Below are positions 1,646-21,775 of a stretch of 34,349 nt of DNA, piece after piece. The number at the start of each line of letters is the position of its first letter. The first letter of the stretch is position 1. The notes beneath the pieces were generated by a model. It saw only the letters and a program-made list of their open reading frames with translations, was not told the origin of the DNA and ran no database searches. The stretch covers positions 1-34,349 of IMG/VR virus record IMGVR_UViG_3300008110_001617. One strand, 5' to 3'. This DNA comes from a virus. Position numbers and translations under genes: made by a program.

Positions 1646-2696
1646 GAGAATAACTCCACCTTCCTCTATTAAGATCCCACTTGGTTACTACGTTTACACC
1701 GTCTGTTCTTTTCATATGATTTTTGGAAGTTGGTTTCCAAAGCGGAGAATTGTCACGGTACTCTCCAAGACGCGGGTGAGCTGTTTTTGAGAAGAAACGC
1801 TTTCCATTATCAATGTAATGTTGAGCAACAGCTTCTGAAAGTTTAGGGCCAAAACCAAGTCCTTGGTAGTCAGGATGTATAACCAACCTGTGTTCTCTAA
1901 AAGCATTCTTGACTGTCCCTGATGGGTACGACATGATCGACTCAAAACCAACTAACTGTCCTTCCCAGAGAGCCAAGTAGCAGTGTGACGCTTTGTTGAG
2001 TGATTCGGAGAGATAGTGATGGTTAGCGAAGAACCTCCATATGGAAGACTTGGCTGGAAGTACTGTGAGAACGAGTTCAGGTCGTTGAAGATACCTTCCC
2101 GAGCTCCACTCGCCACGATCAGTATCAATTACCCAATCTGGTTCGAGGAACTCTAATACATCTCTGTGACAGGTGGCAATAGTTATATTCTTTATATCGT
2201 TTTTACGAATATACCTAGACATAGCATTGGAAGCTGCTTTAGCTACATTTCTATCTACTACAGAAGTAAATTCATCTATAACAGCATTGTCTTCAATACT
2301 ACGAGCAAGGTTTGCTCTAAACTTTTGTCCATTAGATAAACAATCAAATGGTTTTACCCAGTCTGGTACAGACATTAACCCTGCAGCTGATAGTAATTCA
2401 ACTGCCTCATCTGGTGTTGAAAAATGAGAAACAATTGCTTTCTTTGGATGCCATCCAATTGATTTTGCTTCTCCAAAAGATTTAAGCAAAGTTGATTTAC
2501 CAGTACCAGATGCTCCAACAATCACTCCGATGTTATATTCTTTTGGTAGGTCTACTGGTAGTTCATATGGATAAAAAGTAGATTTTCCATCAGTTGTATA
2601 GTCAAATGGACGGATCACTTCCCCAAGCATCTCGTCCATTTGAACTATAGACTCGAGAGGTTTCCTTGCCCTCTCAAGAGCTTTCCAATTTGTCAT
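1611..2696 (-). CDS. ABC-type ATPase fused to GNAT acetyltransferase (COG2401-like)
   Basis: The 361-residue protein joins two domains. The N-terminal part is an ABC ATPase: Walker A GASGTGKST at about 61-69, signature LSNGQ at 120-124, Walker B VIDEF at 139-143 and a switch histidine at 177. The C-terminal part from about residue 215 is a GNAT fold with the acetyl-CoA loop RLVIHPDYQGLGFG at 270-283. The same architecture is described as COG2401, an ABC ATPase fused to a predicted acetyltransferase, whose substrate I cannot name. There are no membrane segments, so this is not a transporter. I chose the ATG at 2696 over one at 2738 because a good -10 box (TATTCT) sits exactly 7 bases before it, which implies a leaderless transcript; the longer start adds an odd Trp/Pro-rich stretch that would be promoter DNA. 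Confidence 0.88.
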   Translation of the reverse strand: MTNWKALERARKPLESIVQMDEMLGEVIRPFDYTTDGKSTFYPYELPVDLPKEYNIGVIVGASGTGKSTLLKSFGEAKSIGWHPKKAIVSHFSTPDEAVELLSAAGLMSVPDWVKPFDCLSNGQKFRANLARSIEDNAVIDEFTSVVDRNVAKAASNAMSRYIRKNDIKNITIATCHRDVLEFLEPDWVIDTDRGEWSSGRYLQRPELVLTVLPAKSSIWRFFANHHYLSESLNKASHCYLALWEGQLVGFESIMSYPSGTVKNAFREHRLVIHPDYQGLGFGPKLSEAVAQHYIDNGKRFFSKTAHPRLGEYRDNSPLWKPTSKNHMKRTDGVNVVTKWDLNRGRWSYSHEYIGKTKAES

Positions 2697-2732
2697 GGGA
2701 TTAAGAATAGGCCAAAAAGGCCAAAAAGTCCA
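2697..2732 (-). promoter_or_regulatory. Candidate leaderless promoter for the ABC-GNAT gene
   Basis: On the minus strand TGGACT (2732-2727) and TATTCT (2709-2704) are separated by exactly 17 bases, and TATTCT is followed by 7 bases and then ATG. Transcription would start at or next to the start codon, as is common in actinobacteria. No ribosome binding site precedes this ATG. The spacer contains a TTTTTGGCC direct repeat. Confidence 0.45.
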
Positions 2733-2808
2733 GGTCATTTTCGCCTCGGCGTTTTGCCTGTATTATTGCTGCTTCTGTCCTATAAACTTATATAAACGAA
2801 GGAGAGCC

Positions 2809-3192
2809 ATGGCACTACACAACCATCTGCTTCTCAATGGGGCTGCCACTAAGCCTCCTGTAGATGAAGCAACCACGATTGAATGGATGAGGAAGCTTGT
2901 CGAAGATATCGATATGAAAATCATTCAAGGACCTTTTGCGTCATATGTGACAAAGGAAGGTAATAGAGGGCTTACAGCAGTTGTAATGATAGAAACTTCT
3001 CATATTGCCATGCATGTATGGGACGAGACAGATCCAGGTTTTATCCAGTTCGATCTCTATACCTGTTCAACCTTGCCTATCAGAAAAGTTGTCGACAATC
3101 TTGTGGAGACATTTGGATTGGTTGAATATCGCTACAAAGTATTAGAACGTAGCGAAGGGTTTAAAATAGTAGTTGAGGAGGAAGTAAAATGA
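2809..3192 (+). CDS. speD: S-adenosylmethionine decarboxylase proenzyme
   Basis: The 127-residue product matches the short prokaryotic AdoMet decarboxylase, a self-cleaving enzyme that makes decarboxylated AdoMet for spermidine synthesis. The processing site ETSHIAMHVW places the pyruvoyl-forming serine at 64, the processing histidine at 69 and the catalytic cysteine at 86 (YTCS), essentially at the positions known for the Thermotoga enzyme (Ser63, His68, Cys83). Length is normal. I start at 2809 because AAGGAG lies just upstream; an upstream in-frame start would read into the promoter of the divergent gene. It is a plus-strand island inside a minus-strand region and overlaps the next gene by ATGA. 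Phages are known to carry speD; here it could alter host polyamines or neutralise packaged DNA, which is inference. Confidence 0.9.
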   Translation: MALHNHLLLNGAATKPPVDEATTIEWMRKLVEDIDMKIIQGPFASYVTKEGNRGLTAVVMIETSHIAMHVWDETDPGFIQFDLYTCSTLPIRKVVDNLVETFGLVEYRYKVLERSEGFKIVVEEEVK

Positions 3193-6993: not shown

Positions 6994-7288
6994 CTCTCTT
7001 TCGGAGAATTATATGACGTTGTTCCTCGGTCATCCCGCCCCACACGCCATACATTTCTGGAACACTAAGAGCGTGCTCTAAACATTGGTTTTTTACGGGA
7101 CAGGTATTACAAAGAGAAACGGCTTTACGCTCTTTTTCTTTCTTTGAAAAACCACGTTCATTGTATTCTAGAAAGAAAGACTCTGGGTCTACATTTCTAC
7201 ATGCGCCATCGAACTGCCACTCCCAGAGGTCGTAAACAGGATCTAATCTTCGATTTACATCGAATCTTGGGTTTTTATAATTAGACAT
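6971..7288 (-). CDS. whiB: WhiB-family iron-sulfur transcription factor
   Basis: The 105-residue protein has the WhiB cluster ligands Cys30 (GAC), Cys60, Cys63 and Cys69 (LCNTCPVKNQC) and the GVWGG turn at 81-85 followed by a basic C-terminal segment. WhiB proteins carry a 4Fe-4S cluster and bind region 4 of the main sigma factor; phage copies are known to interfere with host WhiB regulation, for example in the mycobacteriophage TM4. WhiB is confined to Actinobacteria and their phages, so this is strong host evidence. The ATG at 7288 is the best start, overlapping the NrdJ stop; a TTG three codons upstream is possible. Confidence 0.95.
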   Translation of the reverse strand: MSNYKNPRFDVNRRLDPVYDLWEWQFDGACRNVDPESFFLEYNERGFSKKEKERKAVSLCNTCPVKNQCLEHALSVPEMYGVWGGMTEEQRHIILRKRGVRFDNL

Positions 7289-9191
7289 TGTTTGCAATTA
7301 GCTTTATCTCGCAAGCATCTGTTGTGCAATAAGCCTCACCAATAGCATCTGCAGCAAGACCAGCATAGACGCCTGAAAAGTCGATTGGGAATAATTTCAT
7401 TGTATATTCCTCATACTCTTCTTTGGTGATTTGTGTGTATGGCATCTGAGGATATGTAAAGTTTCCTGAAGGTAGGAAAGATACAGTCTTAAGCTGGCCA
7501 TCATACATATGTAGAACTGTTCCTACATGCTCGCCTTCTTTTTCAGGATCAAACGAGATGGTTACAGAAACAGAGTTATCTGACCAGTAGCGTTGCGCTG
7601 TGGCTGCAAGAGACATCTTTTCAAAGATGGTTACATCTTTTTCTGCACGCTCTGCCATTGATTCAATTGGGAAGAAAACTACAGAAGTTGTATCTGGAGA
7701 TTCTGATGCTGGTTCAACTCTATAGTTTGCCATCTGGAAAAGTGGAAGCATTGGATCTGAGTTAGCAAAACGAATTGCACGATTGAAGTGCTTTCCACCT
7801 GGAGTCCAGTGAACTCCTGGAGACTCTCCAGCTAAGATTGAGACTGTACCTGATGGCTTAACGGTTGTGGTCTTGATTGACTCACGGATACCTAGCCATT
7901 CTGAGTAAGTGACGTCATAACTCTTAACTACAGAGTACCCTTCATCCATCCAATCCTTGAGGACTGGTAATCCAATTCGATCTGCAAAGTTAGCAACTCC
8001 AGATATTGACGTGCCAATTCTGCGATTTCTTTGCATGATCGCGTTGGTCTCTTCCCAGTGTGTTGGTAGAAGAGTGACAGTCTTAGCGTAGAGATAAGCA
8101 AACTTAAGTGTGCGCTTGAAGCGACCATACTTGCGTGATAGATCAAGCCATACAACACCTGGTTCACCATTAAGTGCAATGCCTTCAACGATTCCTGAAA
8201 GATCTTGTCCAACCTCTGCTGCAACAGAGTTGTTAGACATCCAACCCCAACCAGGTGCTGCTGGATCATAAGAATTTCTTTCTGGAAAAACTTCAGGATT
8301 CTTAAGATTTAAAAATGTTTCGTCATCTAATCTTCCGATAAGGAGTTCAGCAGAGCGACGCACATTGCCAGAAACAACGCACACGCCAATGAGATTACCA
8401 ATATCGGCAATGTCAGTACGAGTGACTTTTTCATTTTCACGTCCTGTAAATAGTTTTCTAATGTAGTTATGAAGTTTAATAAGTGGGTCTGGACCTGCTG
8501 CAGTTCCACCAAAGATTTTAATTGGTGCACCAGCTGGGCGAACAAGTGAGTAATCAAATTCAAATGTTGGCTGATCTGGTTTTAGATATGAATTAATAAG
8601 TTGTGCAGTTGTATCTACCCAACCTTCACGAGAGTCTTCAACTACTACAGTTGTAACTTCATCTTTTGGTTTATAGATAATAAAATCTTTATCTGCACCA
8701 AGATCATCAAAACCAACTCCGACACCAAGCATTGATGCTTCCATAAGAAATGCGAATGGTTTTGCTGGATCTGCTTTTGTCATTTCACGAGTCGAAACGA
8801 AAGCACAGTTTTGTAGAGCTGCAGAATTCTTTTGCTCGTTAACAAGTGGGGTTCCCATAACCCAAAGTCCGCGTCCTGGTGGAGTCCACTTCAAATTAAA
8901 TAAACGGTCAAATGCTTCTTTAGCTGATGCTGCTGCACGAGTATCTGACCAAGGAAGGCGATTTGCTTTGCAGTGATCTTTTTGAATTGAGTACATGCCA
9001 TTGATAACGCGCTCGCAAACTTCTATCCAAGTCTCTTTAGTTCCATCTTCTTTTTTACGAGAATATGTGCGAAGAAAAGTAATCTCTCCTACAGAGTTAC
9101 CACCTGCATCCCTATAACCAAAAGGTGCTTGTTTTCCCTTATAAGAGGAGACAAAATCTTCAGAGAGCTTAAACGAAAATGCAACAGACAT
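7281..9191 (-). CDS. nrdJ: Class II ribonucleotide reductase (NrdJ/RTPR type), active-site segment absent
   Basis: The 636-residue protein aligns along its length with the monomeric adenosylcobalamin-dependent ribonucleoside-triphosphate reductase: PPGRGLWVMG near 104-113, LQNCAF with Cys129 (counterpart of Cys119 in the Lactobacillus enzyme), GEPGVVWLDLSRKYGRF, NRRIGTSISG, KTTTVKPSGTVSILAG and the C-terminal redox pair Cys622/Cys627 (CTTDAC). However, after GRF at residue 358 the frame jumps straight to KRTLKFAYLYAKTVT. The family segment NPCGE...C, with the thiyl-radical cysteine, the active-site glutamate and the second cysteine of the reducible pair, is missing (about 50 residues). The frame is otherwise clean. 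I start at the ATG at 9191 behind GAGGAG; a TTG five codons upstream overlaps that site. The enzyme as encoded should be inactive unless the deletion is an assembly error. Confidence 0.92.
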   Translation of the reverse strand: MSVAFSFKLSEDFVSSYKGKQAPFGYRDAGGNSVGEITFLRTYSRKKEDGTKETWIEVCERVINGMYSIQKDHCKANRLPWSDTRAAASAKEAFDRLFNLKWTPPGRGLWVMGTPLVNEQKNSAALQNCAFVSTREMTKADPAKPFAFLMEASMLGVGVGFDDLGADKDFIIYKPKDEVTTVVVEDSREGWVDTTAQLINSYLKPDQPTFEFDYSLVRPAGAPIKIFGGTAAGPDPLIKLHNYIRKLFTGRENEKVTRTDIADIGNLIGVCVVSGNVRRSAELLIGRLDDETFLNLKNPEVFPERNSYDPAAPGWGWMSNNSVAAEVGQDLSGIVEGIALNGEPGVVWLDLSRKYGRFKRTLKFAYLYAKTVTLLPTHWEETNAIMQRNRRIGTSISGVANFADRIGLPVLKDWMDEGYSVVKSYDVTYSEWLGIRESIKTTTVKPSGTVSILAGESPGVHWTPGGKHFNRAIRFANSDPMLPLFQMANYRVEPASESPDTTSVVFFPIESMAERAEKDVTIFEKMSLAATAQRYWSDNSVSVTISFDPEKEGEHVGTVLHMYDGQLKTVSFLPSGNFTYPQMPYTQITKEEYEEYTMKLFPIDFSGVYAGLAADAIGEAYCTTDACEIKLIANNV

Positions 9192-9260
9192 AGGGATACT
9201 CCTCAAAAGTAATAAGCGATTAATGTACTAGGGATACCCTAGAAGATAATTCTACTAGAG

Positions 9261-13485: not shown

Positions 13486-14401
13486 GGTAGAAGTTTTTGA
13501 CGAAGACGGGCCTAGCCCGGAAAAAACATTTCCACTTGTTGATACCCCATATGACAAGAGACCTAATCTTGAAGAACTTGGTATTATAGAGGTGGAGAGA
13601 GGTGTCTGTGAGGACACAGTAGAAAATCGGCGAGCGCTTCGCCATGCAATGCTTAAATGGGATTATGTGTTCGACTCTTCTGGGAATGCAACGGGTCATA
13701 TCGCAGCAAGGTCAATCGAGCAACAACGGGATAGAGCTCTCCTCAGCATCCAACTAAAGAAACAGCTTTTGTTAGATCCTGGAAATATAAACTCAGATTT
13801 CTTAACAGGTCTCGATTTGTTACTTGACGATGAGGCATCTAAGACAGTTCCGGGTTGGGTGCTTGGTGCTACAAGGGCTTGGCAAAAAGAGCAGGAAAGT
13901 GGCCCCGTTTCTTCCCGCCGCCAACCAGCAGGGCTACCCGGTCGATGCACAATGATTAAGACTGACGGCCTCCGTTGTATGTTGTGGCATAGCGGACGGT
14001 TAAAGGACGCAGGTCTTTGCAACATTCATCTCGGCTCCACTCGCAGAACTACAAGTTCAGTTGAACGGGCCCGGGAAAAGGTAAGTCAGATTTCCATCTA
14101 TGCAGTCGATGTCCTTGAGGAACTAATGGACACCGCCCAATCTGAACCAGTCAAACTCAAAGCGGCGACAGAGATTCTTGACCGTGCTGGTGTTCGTGGC
14201 GGTATCGAACTTGGCGTTGAGGTAAATGTTAATGAACGGCCAGCGGGCGAGATTCTTAAAGAGCGGTTGGCAAGACTGAAGGCTGCAGCAGTTGAGCAAG
14301 TTATTATTTCCACAGACAACGGCGTGGAAACGCAAGAGGTTTATGAAGTTACAGATGTGACCCCTAGAGAAGACGGATCGGATCCAGATGCCCGGAACTA
14401 A
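13478..14401 (+). CDS. Terminase small-subunit-like phage protein (307 aa)
   Basis: The C-terminal half contains ISIYAVDVLEELMDTAQ, EPVKLKAATEILDRAGVRGG and an acidic/basic tail, a pattern I associate with phage terminase small subunits and related DNA-packaging proteins (a helix, then KLKAATEILDRAG). Residues about 152-190 hold a possible zinc site: GRCTMIKTDGLRCMLWHSGR then LCNIHLG, resembling Cys/His motifs of small phage DNA-binding proteins. The start is a TTG at 13478 with AAAGGG upstream. The large terminase is not in the window, so a packaging role is only inference; the adjacent repeat-rich region could then be a packaging site. Confidence 0.55.
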   Translation: MSEVEVFDEDGPSPEKTFPLVDTPYDKRPNLEELGIIEVERGVCEDTVENRRALRHAMLKWDYVFDSSGNATGHIAARSIEQQRDRALLSIQLKKQLLLDPGNINSDFLTGLDLLLDDEASKTVPGWVLGATRAWQKEQESGPVSSRRQPAGLPGRCTMIKTDGLRCMLWHSGRLKDAGLCNIHLGSTRRTTSSVERAREKVSQISIYAVDVLEELMDTAQSEPVKLKAATEILDRAGVRGGIELGVEVNVNERPAGEILKERLARLKAAAVEQVIISTDNGVETQEVYEVTDVTPREDGSDPDARN

Positions 14402-14606
14402 CAATATCGAACAGCTAGATGAGCTAGCGGCCCGCCTTCAGGAGGATATCCTTTTAGCGAAGTCCCGTGAAGAACACATTCGCTTAACGGCTCGTGCAAA
14501 TGAAGCCCGGAAAATAGTAGATGATATGAAGATCGATGCTGGGATCCCCCTCTACGATTTCGAGTCTGCTACTTTTACGAGCGGCGAGCCGGGCGGCGAG
14601 GGATAG
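14388..14606 (+). CDS. Small coiled-coil protein (72 aa) whose N-terminus is made by a GGAA-box repeat
   Basis: The protein (MPGTNNIEQLDELAARLQED and onward) is a helical, charged protein with likely coiled coil from 8 to 50 and a Gly-rich end (SGEPGGEG). Its first codons ATGCCCGGAACTAACAAT are a copy of the dispersed GGAA-box repeat, and its last codons lie in the 16-bp direct repeat that recurs at 15396. It overlaps the previous gene by 14 bases. No function is recognisable. Confidence 0.55.
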   Translation: MPGTNNIEQLDELAARLQEDILLAKSREEHIRLTARANEARKIVDDMKIDAGIPLYDFESATFTSGEPGGEG

Positions 14607-15411
14607 CGAGCGCTTTTATATAACGGTTGGCTCGCACTCATAGCTCGAGAGTGCTAACGGATATTGTTACTTCCGGGTTGCAGCTAGCTGCAGATCTGTG
14701 GATAACCGTTCAGACTTAGAACTAACCCTGTACGACTGTTGCATTCTGCTGACGGTTATGTTTTAATGATTTCCTTGTCTCAGTGGGAGTCAACGCTCGA
14801 AAGAATCACGGGTTCGGTATTCATACCCATGCATAACCGGGCGAAGGACGATCATGACATGGGTGTTCGCGGTTTGTGATTCTCTCCCAATTCGCACTCG
14901 AGTCGTACCTGCTCCCACTGGGCATCCCAATAAAACAACAACACAGGTTGTGATCAGCTTTGCCTGGAAATAACAAAACAGCAATGCACACAGAATTCGG
15001 TTGTCAGCAGCTGCAGCTGTAGCGTCATATATCAATGTTAGTTCCAGGAGATCTTCTTTAACACAATTCGGACAAATGCCCGGCACGAGGAAGACGGGCC
15101 CAGGGCCTGGAACTAATAATGTTTGAAGGCCCGATCCAGATCTGCAGCTCGATGGCGGCACGTTGTGCTGTTAGTTCCGGGATCAAATTACACGGTTGTA
15201 GTTCTGGTGGCGGTTACGGCGGAGGCGGCGTGCAAGCTCCAGCCTGGAAATAATAAAACAACGGCAGCGGCTAGGACCGACGCGTCTTCCCTGGAAAATA
15301 CAACGGCAAGTTACTGGCCAGTAGCTGTAGACAGCTCAGCGGCAAGACATCTTGTCATTTCCAGGAGGAGGATCCGTTTGTTGAAACTTCAACCAGGCGG
15401 CGAGGGATAGC
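14592..15411. repeat. 804-bp gene-free block between 16-bp direct repeats
   Basis: The word GGCGGCGAGGGATAGC occurs at 14592-14607 and again at 15396-15411, both times followed about 15 bases later by TATAACGGT. Between them I find no convincing gene. The block holds seven to eight GGAA-box copies, the palindromes TGCAGCTAGCTGCA (14679-14692) and CAGCTGCAGCTG (15008-15019), many AACGG/CCGTT words, and the nested inverted repeats at 14753-14922. It looks like an insertion or a duplication of the gene-end boundary. Confidence 0.65.
14779..14922. ncRNA. Candidate structured element: three nested inverted repeats
   Basis: Three stems nest: CAGTGGGAG (14781-14789) with CTCCCACTG (14912-14920); AGAATCAC (14802-14809) with GTGATTCT (14876-14883); ACCCATG (14825-14831) with CATGGGT (14858-14864). 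GCGAA (14841-14845) can also pair with TTCGC (14866-14870), which would make a pseudoknot. CGGTTATG (14753-14760) pairs alternatively with CATAACCG (14832-14839). The order is right for one folded RNA or a replication/packaging structure. No promoter is obvious. Confidence 0.4.
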
Positions 15412-15499
15412 AGGGGGTAAAAATATAACGGTGTGGGTTATTGACATAGCGGCGAGCGAATGGGAGGGTTATATACATAACGGATGAAGGAGTGACGAC

Positions 15500-15931
15500 A
15501 TGCAAACATTTCTGCCATATGCAGATTTTAAACGGAGTGCACAGGTACTCGACTACAGGAGACTAGGTAAACAACGGGTAGAGACTTGGCAGCTCATCAG
15601 AGCAATCAACGGTGAGACCAGAGGATGGAGGAACCACCCTGCAGCAGTGATGTGGAGGGAACACGTTCCAGCGCTCGCAGTCTACGGAAAAGTTATTTGC
15701 GAGGAATGGATTCGAAGAGGGTACAACGACTCGATGCTGCCGCGGTTTGAATTAATTATTTCCGGGTCTGAAGATCTGCAGCTGCCAGCTTGGCTGGGAA
15801 ATGAAAACTTTCATGAGTCCCATCGCAGCAATCTGCTTCGCAAGTTCCCGGAGTACTACAGGTCCCATTGGCCAGAACTTCAAGATGACCTGCCATATGT
15901 ATGGCCTGTGGATAACTTGGTTGGAGTCTGA
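15500..15931 (+). CDS. MSMEG_6728-like protein, putative pyrimidine-dimer DNA glycosylase
   Basis: The N-terminus MQTFLPYADFKRSAQVLDYR, then RLGKQRVETWQLIRAING, GWRNHPAAVMWREHVPALAVYG and CEEWIRRGYNDSML, is typical of the MSMEG_6728 family, which is annotated as pyrimidine-dimer DNA glycosylase by distant similarity to phage T4 endonuclease V. The later segment LPAWLGNENFHESHRSNLLRK also fits. Such an enzyme would start base-excision repair of ultraviolet damage. The ATG follows GAAGGAGTGACGAC. A reverse GGAA box (TTATTTCCGGG at 15756) and AGATCTGCAGCTGC are read through as codons near residue 88 without breaking the frame. Confidence 0.8.
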   Translation: MQTFLPYADFKRSAQVLDYRRLGKQRVETWQLIRAINGETRGWRNHPAAVMWREHVPALAVYGKVICEEWIRRGYNDSMLPRFELIISGSEDLQLPAWLGNENFHESHRSNLLRKFPEYYRSHWPELQDDLPYVWPVDNLVGV

Positions 15932-16012
15932 CGAGGAGGTCCAGAAGATCCAGCCTGGAACTAACAATGTTCGTTGTTACATGCACAGCTGCAGCGCTGC
16001 CAAAAATTTTTC

Positions 16013-16051
16013 TTGACAGTACTTGACATCGATTGCCCAGTTCTATAATAT
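16013..16051 (+). promoter_or_regulatory. Promoter upstream of the 16101 gene
   Basis: Two TTGACA boxes (16013-16018 and 16023-16028) precede TATAATAT (16044-16051). The second box is 15 bases from TATAAT and 17 from TAATAT. This is the most consensus-like promoter of the window. It follows a GGAA box at 15954. Confidence 0.75.
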
Positions 16052-16100
16052 AAATTCCACTAGCGAATGCTAGGTTTAAATGACGAAGGGATATCAATCA

Positions 16101-16496
16101 ATGGGTCAATATCATGTGCTCGTAAATGTCGACAAGAAGGAAGTAGTTACACCCCACCAACTCGGCTTGGGGCTCAAGCAATGGGAACATCTTGGTGAAT
16201 TCAACGGCACCTTGGCTGACGCCCTTTATGTTTTAACAATGACCAGCCCAGCTCGAGGCGGCGGCGACTTACCTGAGACTGTAATTTCCGGGAGATGGGC
16301 GGGGGACCGCTGTTTTGTTTACGGTGACTACACCGAGGAATCGGATTTACCAGACGGCATCTTCGACCAGGTCAAAGGGAAAGTAGATTCTGAGTTCACA
16401 GAAATCGGCGAGCTCGTATCCGAGGAACTTGGAAAAATATTTGGATTCCGAATGGAAGGCGAGGGTTGGAAACGGCGAGTCGTAATGACGGCTTGA
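16101..16496 (+). CDS. Conserved actinophage/actinobacterial protein of unknown function (131 aa)
   Basis: The sequence MGQYHVLVNVDKKEVVTPHQ, LGLGLKQWEHLG, LADALYVLTMTSPARGGGDLPE and SGRWAGDRCFVYGDYTE is one I recognise from actinobacterial and phage genomes as a conserved hypothetical protein. No catalytic motif is known to me. I start at 16101 because the family starts MGQYH, with AAGGGA upstream; an ATG seven codons earlier is in frame and belongs to an ATGACGAAGG leader word also present before 17094 and 22240. A reverse GGAA box (GTAATTTCCGGG at 16281) encodes the VISGR segment. Confidence 0.8.
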   Translation: MGQYHVLVNVDKKEVVTPHQLGLGLKQWEHLGEFNGTLADALYVLTMTSPARGGGDLPETVISGRWAGDRCFVYGDYTEESDLPDGIFDQVKGKVDSEFTEIGELVSEELGKIFGFRMEGEGWKRRVVMTA

Positions 16497-16619
16497 GCAA
16501 ATAGCGGCACGGGAAGAGCCCGGAAATAATAAGTTAACGGTGCACCTTTAAGCTTGGCCAGAGAGCCAGCAAGGTGCATCGTTTTTCAATAACGGCGAGC
16601 GAAAGGTGAGGGTATATAA

Positions 16620-16865
16620 ATGGGTCGCAAGATTGTGACACGGTTAGAGTTGTTTTTCGATGAGGACCTGCTGTACGAAGGAACTGACTCAACGGATAAG
16701 AGAAGTGACGAGGATGTGCTGGAGTACGCAGCGGAGTGCTTCGTCGACGATGTCTTTCAGATGGTGAAGTACAACGAGTTGTTTGCGATTGCAAAGGAGC
16801 GAACTTATTTTGTTGAATCAAACGAGGAAGACGCAGCTGCAGAACCCGGAAATAACAATGTTTGA
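16620..16865 (+). CDS. Small acidic protein (81 aa) ending in a GGAA-box repeat
   Basis: The protein begins MGRKIVTRLELFFDEDLLYE and is strongly acidic, with a SDEDVLEYAAECFVDDVFQM helix in the centre. Its last residues (AAAEPGNNNV) and stop codon are encoded by CAGCTGCAG plus a GGAA box at 16845, so the C-terminus seems to have been made by the repeat. Upstream the start is preceded by GGTGAGGGTATATAA and an AACGGCGAG word. No family is recognised. Confidence 0.6.
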   Translation: MGRKIVTRLELFFDEDLLYEGTDSTDKRSDEDVLEYAAECFVDDVFQMVKYNELFAIAKERTYFVESNEEDAAAEPGNNNV

Positions 16866-17093
16866 TGTCCGCCACCTGGATGGCATCCCAGGGCCAGGAA
16901 ATAATAACTTCAAGAAGGAGAAGAATTCTGGCAGCGCTGTCCCGGAAATAATAATGTTCGCAGATGTCCAGGGCCCCAGGTCATCAGCGGAACTGACAAC
17001 TCAACAATCAGAGGACATGTCCAGTCAAAGTCTTGACATCCACCTTTTCTATAATAGACTTGGCAGTGGCAATCAAATGACGAAAGGAATGCC
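16866..17093. other. Intergenic region with GGAA boxes and a promoter
   Basis: Two forward GGAA boxes (16894 and 16941) are spaced 47 bases apart, and further right TTGACA (17033-17038) is followed by TATAAT (17050-17055, only 11 bases away) and TAGACT (17055-17060, 16 bases away), so the second is the better -10. The leader then contains AAATGACGAAAGG, the same word as before 16101 and 22240, providing the ribosome binding site of the next gene. Frames crossing this stretch look like chance. Confidence 0.55.
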
Positions 17094-18351: not shown

Positions 18352-18804
18352 ATGCTAGATATAGAGAAGCCTATTCAGGGCGTTTCGGTCTATGCCGAGT
18401 TTTCCAAGCCCGGCTATCGCACCGAGATTTTCATTACTCCTGACGGATTTTCCGCAGAGGGAAAAGTAGTTCCTGCCAAAATCTTTAGCAGGATTACAAG
18501 CGCAGACAAGCCAAAGAAAGTTTGGCAACAATACACAGTTCAGTTGGTTGAGGACATGGCTAAGGTTGGTGAAACCTTGCTAGACCCTGCTAATCGAGAA
18601 ACTTATGTAGAGAAGCGACTAGCCCACCTAGAAAATGTATTCGTTGGTCTAGTGGCAAACGAGTGGCAGATAGTCAAAGAGCCTGTTCTCATAGAAACCA
18701 GCAAGAACGATTTGTCTGAAATCGCAGAGAGCAAGACACCTGTAAAAATTGTTTATCGTATAAATCAGAGCAGGAAAGCACTTGGCTTTCCTGATACTTG
18801 GTAA
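18352..18804 (+). CDS. Hypothetical protein upstream of the MoxR-like ATPase (150 aa)
   Basis: The product begins MLDIEKPIQGVSVYAEFSKP and has a C-terminal segment TPVKIVYRINQSRKALGFPD; I do not recognise it. The 5' part is preceded by AGAGAGAAAGAGAGAAA, a purine-rich leader, and a TATAGAAT box lies at 18279-18286. The next gene starts 15 bases after its stop and is probably in the same operon, so the protein may be an accessory or substrate adaptor of the ATPase, which is inference only. Confidence 0.65.
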   Translation: MLDIEKPIQGVSVYAEFSKPGYRTEIFITPDGFSAEGKVVPAKIFSRITSADKPKKVWQQYTVQLVEDMAKVGETLLDPANRETYVEKRLAHLENVFVGLVANEWQIVKEPVLIETSKNDLSEIAESKTPVKIVYRINQSRKALGFPDTW

Positions 18805-18818
18805 GGGGGGTAGCCAAA

Positions 18819-19871
18819 GTGGATTTGGAAACTAAATCAAAACTCGTTTCTGTTAGTGGAAGTTTTTGGAAAATCGTCAATGAGTGTCTTATTCAGGGTG
18901 TTGATGATGAGGTTAGACTTAGACTTGGCGCAGAGGTAAAGCCAAGTGGTCGTTGCGTAGAGAGAGCGAGTGGTGATGAAAGAAAAGCAAGAGTTTCTGC
19001 TACCACTCCAAGTGGAGTAGAAGTGGCAAATATGGAAGCAGACGAGTTCTACACTCGTCCTAATGGACAAAAGTATTTCACTCGCTCATGGGGAGTTCAT
19101 ACTGATGTAGCAGTTCTACGCAGAGCAAGAGAAGCAACTACAAAGTTCTTTTCAGAGGGAGTTGGTTCTCCACAATTCGCCATGTTTTATGGAGTTCCGG
19201 GAACAGGAAAAACTGCTCTCGTAGAAGCAAGTTTCCATGACGATAAAGTTATTACTTTGGTAGGTAATGGAGATACTGATACCAATGACTTTTATGGTTC
19301 GTTTATCCAAACTCCAAGTGGAAACTTTGAGTGGCTAGATGGTGGATTTATTGAGGCAGTAGAAAATGGTTATGTATTTTTTATTGACGAGATAGGTCTT
19401 ATTGACCCTAAAGCGTTGGCAATAGTTTATTCCGTTATGGACGGACGAAAAGAAATCACTATCCCAATGAACCCTGATAGAGGAACTATCAAAGTCCATG
19501 AAAACTTTTATGTAGTTTCAGCGACTAATCCAAACGCTCCCGGAGTTCGTCTTTCAGAAGCGTTGATTTCTCGTTTCCAAGTTCAGGCAGAACTAACAAC
19601 TGATTATGCGCTCGCAAAGAAGTTGGGAGTTCCAGCGACAATGGTGAGCGTTGCTCAAAATCTCTACAAGCGCACACAGGGAGATAGTGCTGAAATCTCA
19701 TGGAGTCCTCAAATGCGTGAGTTGCTTGGTTTCAGAGATACTTCTGAAATCTTTGGAACAGAGTTCGCTATCTCTAATCTGATAGCGAGCGCACCTGAAC
19801 TAGATAGAGATGTAGTCGTTGATGTTATCTCTAGGGCGTATGGGGCAGAATACAAACCTGCCAAGATTTAG
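18819..19871 (+). CDS. MoxR/CobS-like AAA+ ATPase
   Basis: The 350-residue product (GTG at 18819 behind AAGGGGGGTAGCCAAA) has an AAA+ core: Walker A GVPGTGKTA at 125-133, Walker B YVFFIDEIG at 185-193, sensor 1 VVSATNPN near 242-249 and an arginine-containing SEALISRFQ near 257-265. The SGNFEWLDGGFIEAVENG segment is typical of the MoxR/CobS/dynein-related group. These ATPases typically work with a von Willebrand A protein, here the next gene 125 bases downstream. CobS/CobT form cobaltochelatase, and cyanophages carry cobS, but in a phage of this type a protein-remodelling role is equally likely. Confidence 0.9.
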   Translation: MDLETKSKLVSVSGSFWKIVNECLIQGVDDEVRLRLGAEVKPSGRCVERASGDERKARVSATTPSGVEVANMEADEFYTRPNGQKYFTRSWGVHTDVAVLRRAREATTKFFSEGVGSPQFAMFYGVPGTGKTALVEASFHDDKVITLVGNGDTDTNDFYGSFIQTPSGNFEWLDGGFIEAVENGYVFFIDEIGLIDPKALAIVYSVMDGRKEITIPMNPDRGTIKVHENFYVVSATNPNAPGVRLSEALISRFQVQAELTTDYALAKKLGVPATMVSVAQNLYKRTQGDSAEISWSPQMRELLGFRDTSEIFGTEFAISNLIASAPELDRDVVVDVISRAYGAEYKPAKI

Positions 19872-19996
19872 AAAGGGTTTTTTACCCCCTTCTAATATAT
19901 GGGCGAAGGTGGGGGCTTCTCTCTCCCCCACCTTCCCTTTCTAGGATAGAAATGCTAGACTTAGAGAGTAAGGACACACGAAAGAAAAGGGAAAAA

Positions 19997-21775
19997 ATGG
20001 CACACATAAAGCACAAAGAAGCCACTAACTCAAAGGTGAAAACACCTAGCGAGTGGTTAGGCGTTGGCTATGAAATTACGCAGTTAGTAAATAAGTGGTC
20101 TGATAGAACAGACCTAGTTGCTCTAATAAATCAAGAAGCAGGACAAGGCGCACCTGCTTGCTATATTCCAGCGTTCGCAGAAGTAGAAGTAAATACAAAA
20201 GAAGCGTTTGGGGAAATAACAACTCCTAATCACATAAACGATTTGACGAAGCGAAGCAACCAATACGAGTGGGCTAAAGCCACAGGTGCTATTCGCCATG
20301 AGGCATACCACGCAAAGTTTTCTGCTTGGGATATGCCAAGCGCATACAAGGCACTAAAGCAAGATGAGTATGAGGCTTTGGTGTTGCTAGAGGAAGGTCG
20401 TATTGAGGCTTGGGGTATCAAGACCCACCCTGACGCAAAAGTTTTTCTACGAGCAAGTGCTATGGGTTTGATTATTGACGAAGCAAAAGAAGTATTTGGA
20501 AAAGAAACTTCTAGTGTCGCAAGTGCTAGTTCTTTAGTTGGTCTATGCCACGCAAGAGTTATAGCAGGTTCGCTTGATGAAAACGAAGCACTAGACCTAT
20601 TCACAGAAGTAGAAAAAGTATTAGGTAAAGAGTTAGTAGATAAACTAGAAGCGATTATTGAGAAGTTTCAGGCACACACTAATCACACAGATATTTCTGC
20701 TTGCTACCCACTAGCAATAGAGTGGGCAAAGTTAGTTCGTGATAAGAAAAAAGAAGCAGGAGAAAGTGAAAGCGACTTTCCTGATTTCGCAGAGATTATG
20801 AAAGAGATGTTAGGAGAAATGGAAAAGCAAGTTCCTATCTCCAATGATAAAGATTTACACGACCAAAAGCGTTCAGAGGATATGAAAGAGAGCGCAACTG
20901 CTAAAGAGCAGACTTCTAAAGAGCAAAAGAAAAACGAGGAAGTTGCTAAAGAAGTTTTCTCTAAATCAACAGGTCCGGGGGAGAGCGCAACTCGTTCTCG
21001 CCTAACAGAAAAAAGACCCCCTAATGGAAAAGAGCGCAGTAGCGCAGTAAAAATCTCTAGGGCTTTGGAAAGAGCAAAGTATCGTGAGCGTGGGATTACA
21101 GAGATAGGAAGCGTAGTTCCTCCCGGAAAACTAAATACAAGAAAGATTATTGAGGCTAAGGCTTTAGAGCAGAGAGGTATCCATACTCAACCAACTGCTT
21201 TCACAAAGAAAGTTCGTAAGCACACAGACGAACCACCACTAACAGTTGGAGTAATGGTTGATATTTCAGGCTCAATGGGAAGTGCTATGAACCCAATGGC
21301 TTCTACTGCTTGGATTATGGGTGAGGCAGTTCGCCGAGTTCAGGGAAATGTCGCTATGGTTTATTACGGAAGTGATGTATTTCCAACTCTCAAAAGAGGG
21401 CAACGACTAAAAGATGTAAATGTTTATTCTGCCCCTGACGGAACTGAAAAGTTTGATAAAGCGTTTCGTGCTTTGGACGGCGCACTTCACTTACTTTATG
21501 GTGAAGGCGCAAGACTTCTAGTAATTGTGTCGGACGGACAATACACAAGTGAGGAAACAGAAAAGGCGAAGTCATGGATACGCACCTGTTCTAAGCATGG
21601 TGTCGCAGTTCTATGGCTACCTATCGGCTCTAACGACTACTACGCAAAAGATATTTGTGCTGGTGCTAACGCAGAAATCGTTGTCGGTATAACTGACCCA
21701 ACAAGTTCGGCTTTGGCTATTGGCAAGTCTGCCGAGAAAACTCTCTCAACGGCAGGAAAGAGGTTGTCGGCGTGA
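19997..21775 (+). CDS. VWA protein with N-terminal HExxH, CobT-like partner of the AAA ATPase
   Basis: The 592-residue protein has three parts. Residues 1-200 carry GAIRHEAYHAKFSAW (HExxH at 101-105) and 25-30 residues later LVLLEEGRIEAW, whose glutamates could be the third ligand, as in gluzincin-like metallopeptidases. A Lys/Glu-rich linker runs from about 250 to 350 and a von Willebrand A domain from about 410, with MIDAS motif VDISGSMGS near 421-429 and VSDGQYT further on. This VWA plus MoxR ATPase arrangement resembles CobT/CobS and RavA/ViaA, where the VWA protein is substrate adaptor. I start at 19997 because AAAGGGAAAAA precedes it; the earlier ATG at 19952 belongs to a leader word also seen at 18352. 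Whether it cleaves proteins is unknown. Confidence 0.85.
   Translation: MAHIKHKEATNSKVKTPSEWLGVGYEITQLVNKWSDRTDLVALINQEAGQGAPACYIPAFAEVEVNTKEAFGEITTPNHINDLTKRSNQYEWAKATGAIRHEAYHAKFSAWDMPSAYKALKQDEYEALVLLEEGRIEAWGIKTHPDAKVFLRASAMGLIIDEAKEVFGKETSSVASASSLVGLCHARVIAGSLDENEALDLFTEVEKVLGKELVDKLEAIIEKFQAHTNHTDISACYPLAIEWAKLVRDKKKEAGESESDFPDFAEIMKEMLGEMEKQVPISNDKDLHDQKRSEDMKESATAKEQTSKEQKKNEEVAKEVFSKSTGPGESATRSRLTEKRPPNGKERSSAVKISRALERAKYRERGITEIGSVVPPGKLNTRKIIEAKALEQRGIHTQPTAFTKKVRKHTDEPPLTVGVMVDISGSMGSAMNPMASTAWIMGEAVRRVQGNVAMVYYGSDVFPTLKRGQRLKDVNVYSAPDGTEKFDKAFRALDGALHLLYGEGARLLVIVSDGQYTSEETEKAKSWIRTCSKHGVAVLWLPIGSNDYYAKDICAGANAEIVVGITDPTSSALAIGKSAEKTLSTAGKRLSA

Follow-up and report, generated by a model that had tools for sequence, protein, structure and literature searches.

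The reductase gene and its family

The window, i.e. the whole stretch of 34,349 nucleotides analysed here, covers positions 1 to 34,349 of the IMG/VR virus record IMGVR_UViG_3300008110_001617, which is a fragment of 37,262 bases; long relatives reach about 130 kb. On the minus strand, at 7281–9206, it carries a class II (B12-dependent, monomeric) ribonucleotide reductase (RNR) gene of the RTPR/NrdJ type with an internal in-frame deletion, as recognized from the open frame and from matches to domain and family profiles. Counted from a TTG, the frame is open over 641 codons; the ATG at 9191, which is the probable start and the origin of the residue numbering used below, gives 636 amino acids. 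The N-terminal part (8121–9191, minus strand) comprises the alpha domain, the insertion domain, the redox cysteine Cys129 (Cys119 of RTPR) and the first barrel half, as delimited by domain profiles, by alignment to the Lactobacillus leichmannii RTPR structure (PDB 1l1l) and by a 34-sequence alignment. The C-terminal part (7284–8120, minus strand), delimited by the TIGR02505 profile and the same two alignments, comprises the rest of the second half-barrel and the Cys622/Cys627 pair.

Family membership follows from several matches. Both the RNR alpha domain (PF17975, 2.7e-29) and the RNR-II insertion domain (PF21995, 4e-12) score above cut-off, the protein matches PHROG 367, and its only solved-structure relative by sequence is 1l1l, a monomeric adenosylcobalamin-dependent ribonucleoside-triphosphate reductase (2.3e-81). 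Against the RTPR profile TIGR02505 it reaches 300 bits, below the curated cut-off of 340 bits, a threshold that is not sharp for this phage group, with the intact relatives L001 and L010 at 338 and 349 bits. Cys129 aligns with Cys119 of 1l1l, and Cys129, Cys622 and Cys627 are invariant columns of the 34-sequence alignment. A sequence-only reading of this DNA had named these three cysteines as landmarks and had taken the protein, apart from one gap, for a normal monomeric B12 reductase; both statements are borne out. The gene is thus a member of the RTPR family by descent; as an enzyme, it fails on the defining catalytic features tested. A protein search of the 37,262-base record for a second RNR returned only the gene at 7281–9206. 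The Pfam large-subunit barrel profile gave zero matches over the record and, since it misses even the known RNR gene of the window, is a weak test for a second one.

Other genes of the window include one at 1611–2738 whose product combines an ABC-type ATPase part with a part resembling an acetyltransferase (phrog_11143, 8.9e-107), and an S-adenosylmethionine decarboxylase-like phage gene at 2695–3192 (phrog_3125, 1.4e-13), the product of which is 91% identical over 134 amino acids to the L001 copy. At 18798–21775, an AAA ATPase gene is succeeded by a large one that lacks a PHROG match and that we read as resembling a VWA-type metal-binding protein; this stretch has no DNA match among 50,697 phage records.

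The missing segment

Comparison with relatives places the deletion junction at 8118–8124 (minus strand), after R357, which ends at base 8121, and before F358, which starts at base 8120, with exactly 44 codons (132 nt) gone in frame. The placement can slide by at most 3 nt, and within this slide the removed stretch starts and stops on codon borders; as judged on the relatives, the two deletion ends share 0 to 3 nt of homology. The absent 44 residues include NPCAE, with the thiyl-radical cysteine and the catalytic glutamate, as well as the second redox cysteine. Accordingly, the alignment of 1l1l to the window protein breaks at chain residue 390 and restarts at 437: residues 391–436, with the finger loop, have no counterpart, in contrast to the Cys119 equivalent and the C-terminal region, which are kept. 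In the established numbering of RTPR, this unmatched stretch contains Cys408, Glu410 and Cys419. In functional terms, the finger loop NPCxE (thiyl-radical Cys408, Glu410) is deleted, the active-site redox pair Cys119/Cys419 is reduced to its first member (Cys129), and the C-terminal redox pair (Cys622 and Cys627) remains.

The segment with NPCAE is present in 80 of the 80 closest viral relatives. In the alignments shown for the best relatives, the window protein has a single gap, of 44 residues, and the relative is ungapped; the catalytic motif was found nowhere else in the protein. The flanking motifs have their intact spacing in 159 fetched loci, about half of which came from a second survey with NPCAE among its search words, so that only the first 80 and the Actinomycetia phage DSL-LC01 (Dishui Lake) are unbiased on presence of the segment. 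DSL-LC01, the closest cultured relative, also has the intact spacing; its RTPR (OQ999401, WJZ48428) is 73% identical to the window protein (tblastn), and in both genomes methyltransferase and mannosyltransferase-type genes lie near the RNR gene. Identity is higher with the RTPR of L001 from IMG/VR (up to 88% by tblastn, 94% in the multiple alignment). Unlike the window gene, however, DSL-LC01 and the IMG/VR loci L001–L010 all carry the 44 residues, in a gene of about 681 amino acids. The break in the 1l1l alignment, the segment in the relatives and the invariant cysteines together show that the sequence-only reading was right to see the catalytic segment as absent in frame; its location stands as well, and only the size, given as about 50 residues, has to be corrected to 44.

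No other record with the same junction emerged from exact-pattern scans of a viral collection of 2.9 million contigs, and two spaced-pattern scans of this collection for a shortening by 117–147 nt at the same place gave zero matches. These scans leave out records very near the window, and their patterns require exact conserved flanks, which places distant families outside their coverage. As a control, the same spaced pattern recovers the window gene, the shortened distance between the flanking motifs being found a single time in the window with 0.00 matches expected by chance. A degenerate pattern for the junction peptide matched one other viral contig, L083, which was rejected as a chance match lying antisense to an unrelated open frame. 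Three exact-word scans for records of the same species, with or without the segment, came back empty, again with records near the window left out.

The enzyme might also be completed by a separate piece, as had been proposed, the absent residues then being provided in trans or spliced in from elsewhere in the genome. Split RNR genes are known in phages (PMC3653736), and the record covers only 37 kb of what in relatives is a genome of about 130 kb. A search with the segment plus flanking sequence over all 37,262 bases of the record, however, matched only the remaining flank; a separate NPCxE gene, which the sequence-only reading had suggested looking for in related contigs and the rest of the record, was not found in these 37,262 bases, nor was any NPCAE-coding piece, and the window holds no NPCAEQ-like coding word. 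At the junction itself, the flanks join directly, with neither intein-like nor intron sequence. The lost part is, moreover, the finger loop, which lies centrally in the barrel, and we know of no case in which such a loop is provided in trans. A split enzyme is thus disfavoured, and we consider it extremely improbable.

Selection and the origin of the junction

Apart from the gap, the gene looks like one that has been in use. Compared with L001, dN/dS is 0.042/0.65; none of 75 residues invariant in the relatives is changed; the window branch in a codon tree measures 0.27 (0.31 for its sister L001); and two amino-acid changes are private to the window gene, with 2 to 33 in relatives by the same counting. 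A three-point estimate puts omega on the terminal branch at about 0.04. If 2–5% of this branch had been neutral, the probability of the observed number of amino-acid changes, P(N<=23), would be about 6e-4 to 2e-7; these values are rough because dS is high and the calculation uses NG86 distances with background omega held fixed. At the level of sequence, the remainder of the protein thus resembles an active enzyme under normal purifying selection, free of any trace of relaxed or altered selection.

A single record together with normal constraint elsewhere in the gene means that the loss either happened very recently, as measured on this time scale, or is not real. For the same reason, the shortened gene has not been kept up over any measurable time, and the earlier proposal that the phage 'keeps' this frame for an inactive enzyme is not supported. 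Nor does the open frame prove upkeep, since a deletion by a multiple of three, which occurs in one of three cases by chance, alone suffices for it. A maintained non-catalytic protein, i.e. a reductase without finger loop kept for B12 or nucleotide binding or for modulating a host enzyme, would fit the open frame with its intact start and C-terminus as well as the constraint across the remainder of the gene. Yet the shortened gene appears in no second record, Cys129, Cys622 and Cys627, which serve catalysis only, are unchanged, the time since the loss is too short, and the structural model shows poor packing near the junction. We therefore regard such a role, which had also been suggested from the sequence, as very unlikely; that the deletion is real and fixed in the phage, with the protein non-catalytic and acting, for instance, by sequestering B12 or by binding or modulating the host reductase, appears highly improbable. 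No positive evidence emerged for either a maintained non-catalytic role or a split enzyme.

This leaves two accounts of how the junction arose. In the first, an ordinary phage class II gene of the RTPR type would have suffered a very recent, private deletion of 132 nt by illegitimate, nearly homology-free joining. Lost with it would be the finger loop, which bears the thiyl-radical cysteine and the catalytic glutamate, the strand that follows and opens the second half-barrel, which carries the second redox cysteine, and the surrounding linkers. The shortened allele would then be a null allele within the phage population, and we propose that it can be tolerated because dNTPs come from the reductase of the host and from nucleotide recycling. 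Here we infer that actual phage DNA contains the junction, that activity is lost and that the host makes this loss bearable. We give about an even chance to such a private and recent deletion having turned an auxiliary phage gene into a null allele.

In the second account, the phage gene is normal, with about 681 amino acids, and the 132 nt went missing during library preparation or assembly, through a chimeric read or a mis-joined contig. The short form does come from a single record of an uncultured virus, all relatives are intact and the gene is fully constrained, as if active to the present; the data behind a recent deletion also fit an artefact. On the other hand, the homology of at most 3 nt at the junction, far from a repeat of k-mer size, disfavours k-mer assembly or repeat collapse, though not a chimeric read: ends that share 0–3 nt are what illegitimate joining within the phage, or a chimera formed in the library, would leave. 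Repeat-mediated deletion and repeat collapse were thus both rejected. The segment also shows no special peak of conservation shared between strains. In DNA-level comparison of six close relatives it ranks 365 of 1912 windows and, not being the gene's most conserved DNA, offers no special reason for assembly to fail there, so that failure at a strain-conserved stretch was set aside. A generally poor contig was rejected as well, the other genes of the window being intact (no gap larger than 7 amino acids against the best relatives, with the three best hits per gene shown). The assembly collapse raised by the sequence-only reading is disfavoured in its repeat-driven form; some other library or assembly artefact stays a close rival and is a serious possibility, if not the one we would put first. 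With a junction devoid of assembly-scale homology in an otherwise clean contig, we prefer a real null allele.

The shortened product, known parallels and dispersed elements

The radical cysteine of RNRs sits on a finger loop that connects the two halves of the barrel, of five strands each (PMC9669993). AlphaFold models of the window protein and of the intact L001 protein, built from the same 34 sequences, reach a pTM of 0.68 and 0.81 and a mean pLDDT of 71 and 77.5, respectively. For the window protein, pLDDT drops to 33–54 in several blocks, which lie close to the junction and in the second half-barrel; the intact model likewise has low-pLDDT blocks, at the finger loop. Both models find their best fold match in 1l1l (TM 0.79 by query for the window model). 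The window model follows 1l1l overall but lacks the strand of the ten-stranded alpha/beta barrel that comes after the finger loop. To judge from these models, the shortened product probably folds badly in its second half-barrel. According to established RNR chemistry, loss of the thiyl cysteine means loss of catalysis, and with the catalytic glutamate and the second redox cysteine deleted too, the product should not perform AdoCbl-dependent reduction of ribonucleotides, in agreement with the earlier expectation that this enzyme should not work.

Like the window gene, nrdA of a Campylobacter phage and nrdJ of the Thermus phage phiYS40 are RNR genes that are interrupted or suspected of losing function; unlike the simple internal deletion seen here, these involve insertions or splits (PMC3653736). 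Since split or degenerating phage RNR genes have already been described there, the present case is at most a further loss in a known kind of gene, and a new kind of enzyme is most likely not what the shortened gene represents. Should the deletion be real, a common auxiliary gene of phages would here have a natural null allele, which suggests that this phage can dispense with its own reductase. The picture of RNR chemistry is left unchanged. For surveys that infer phage biology from RNR genes, however, it is a caution that gene calls need a check of catalytic residues, as has been done for RTPR calls with PASV in virioplankton (PMC10547690).

Elsewhere, the window contains two families of short dispersed elements. 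Between 18228 and 31636, TA[TA]A[TG]A-N3..6-G-run-TAAAA occurs in 17 copies, distributed over both strands, and the end of some copies lies directly ahead of the start of an ORF (24345, 27333). This element, of which no copy occurs in the stretches of L010 and DSL-LC01 examined, could act as a promoter or leader specific to the phage. Repeats resembling CC[CT]GGAA[AC]TAA[CT]AATG are present in 11 copies (at most 2 mismatches; 0.13 expected), most of them in 14391–16956.
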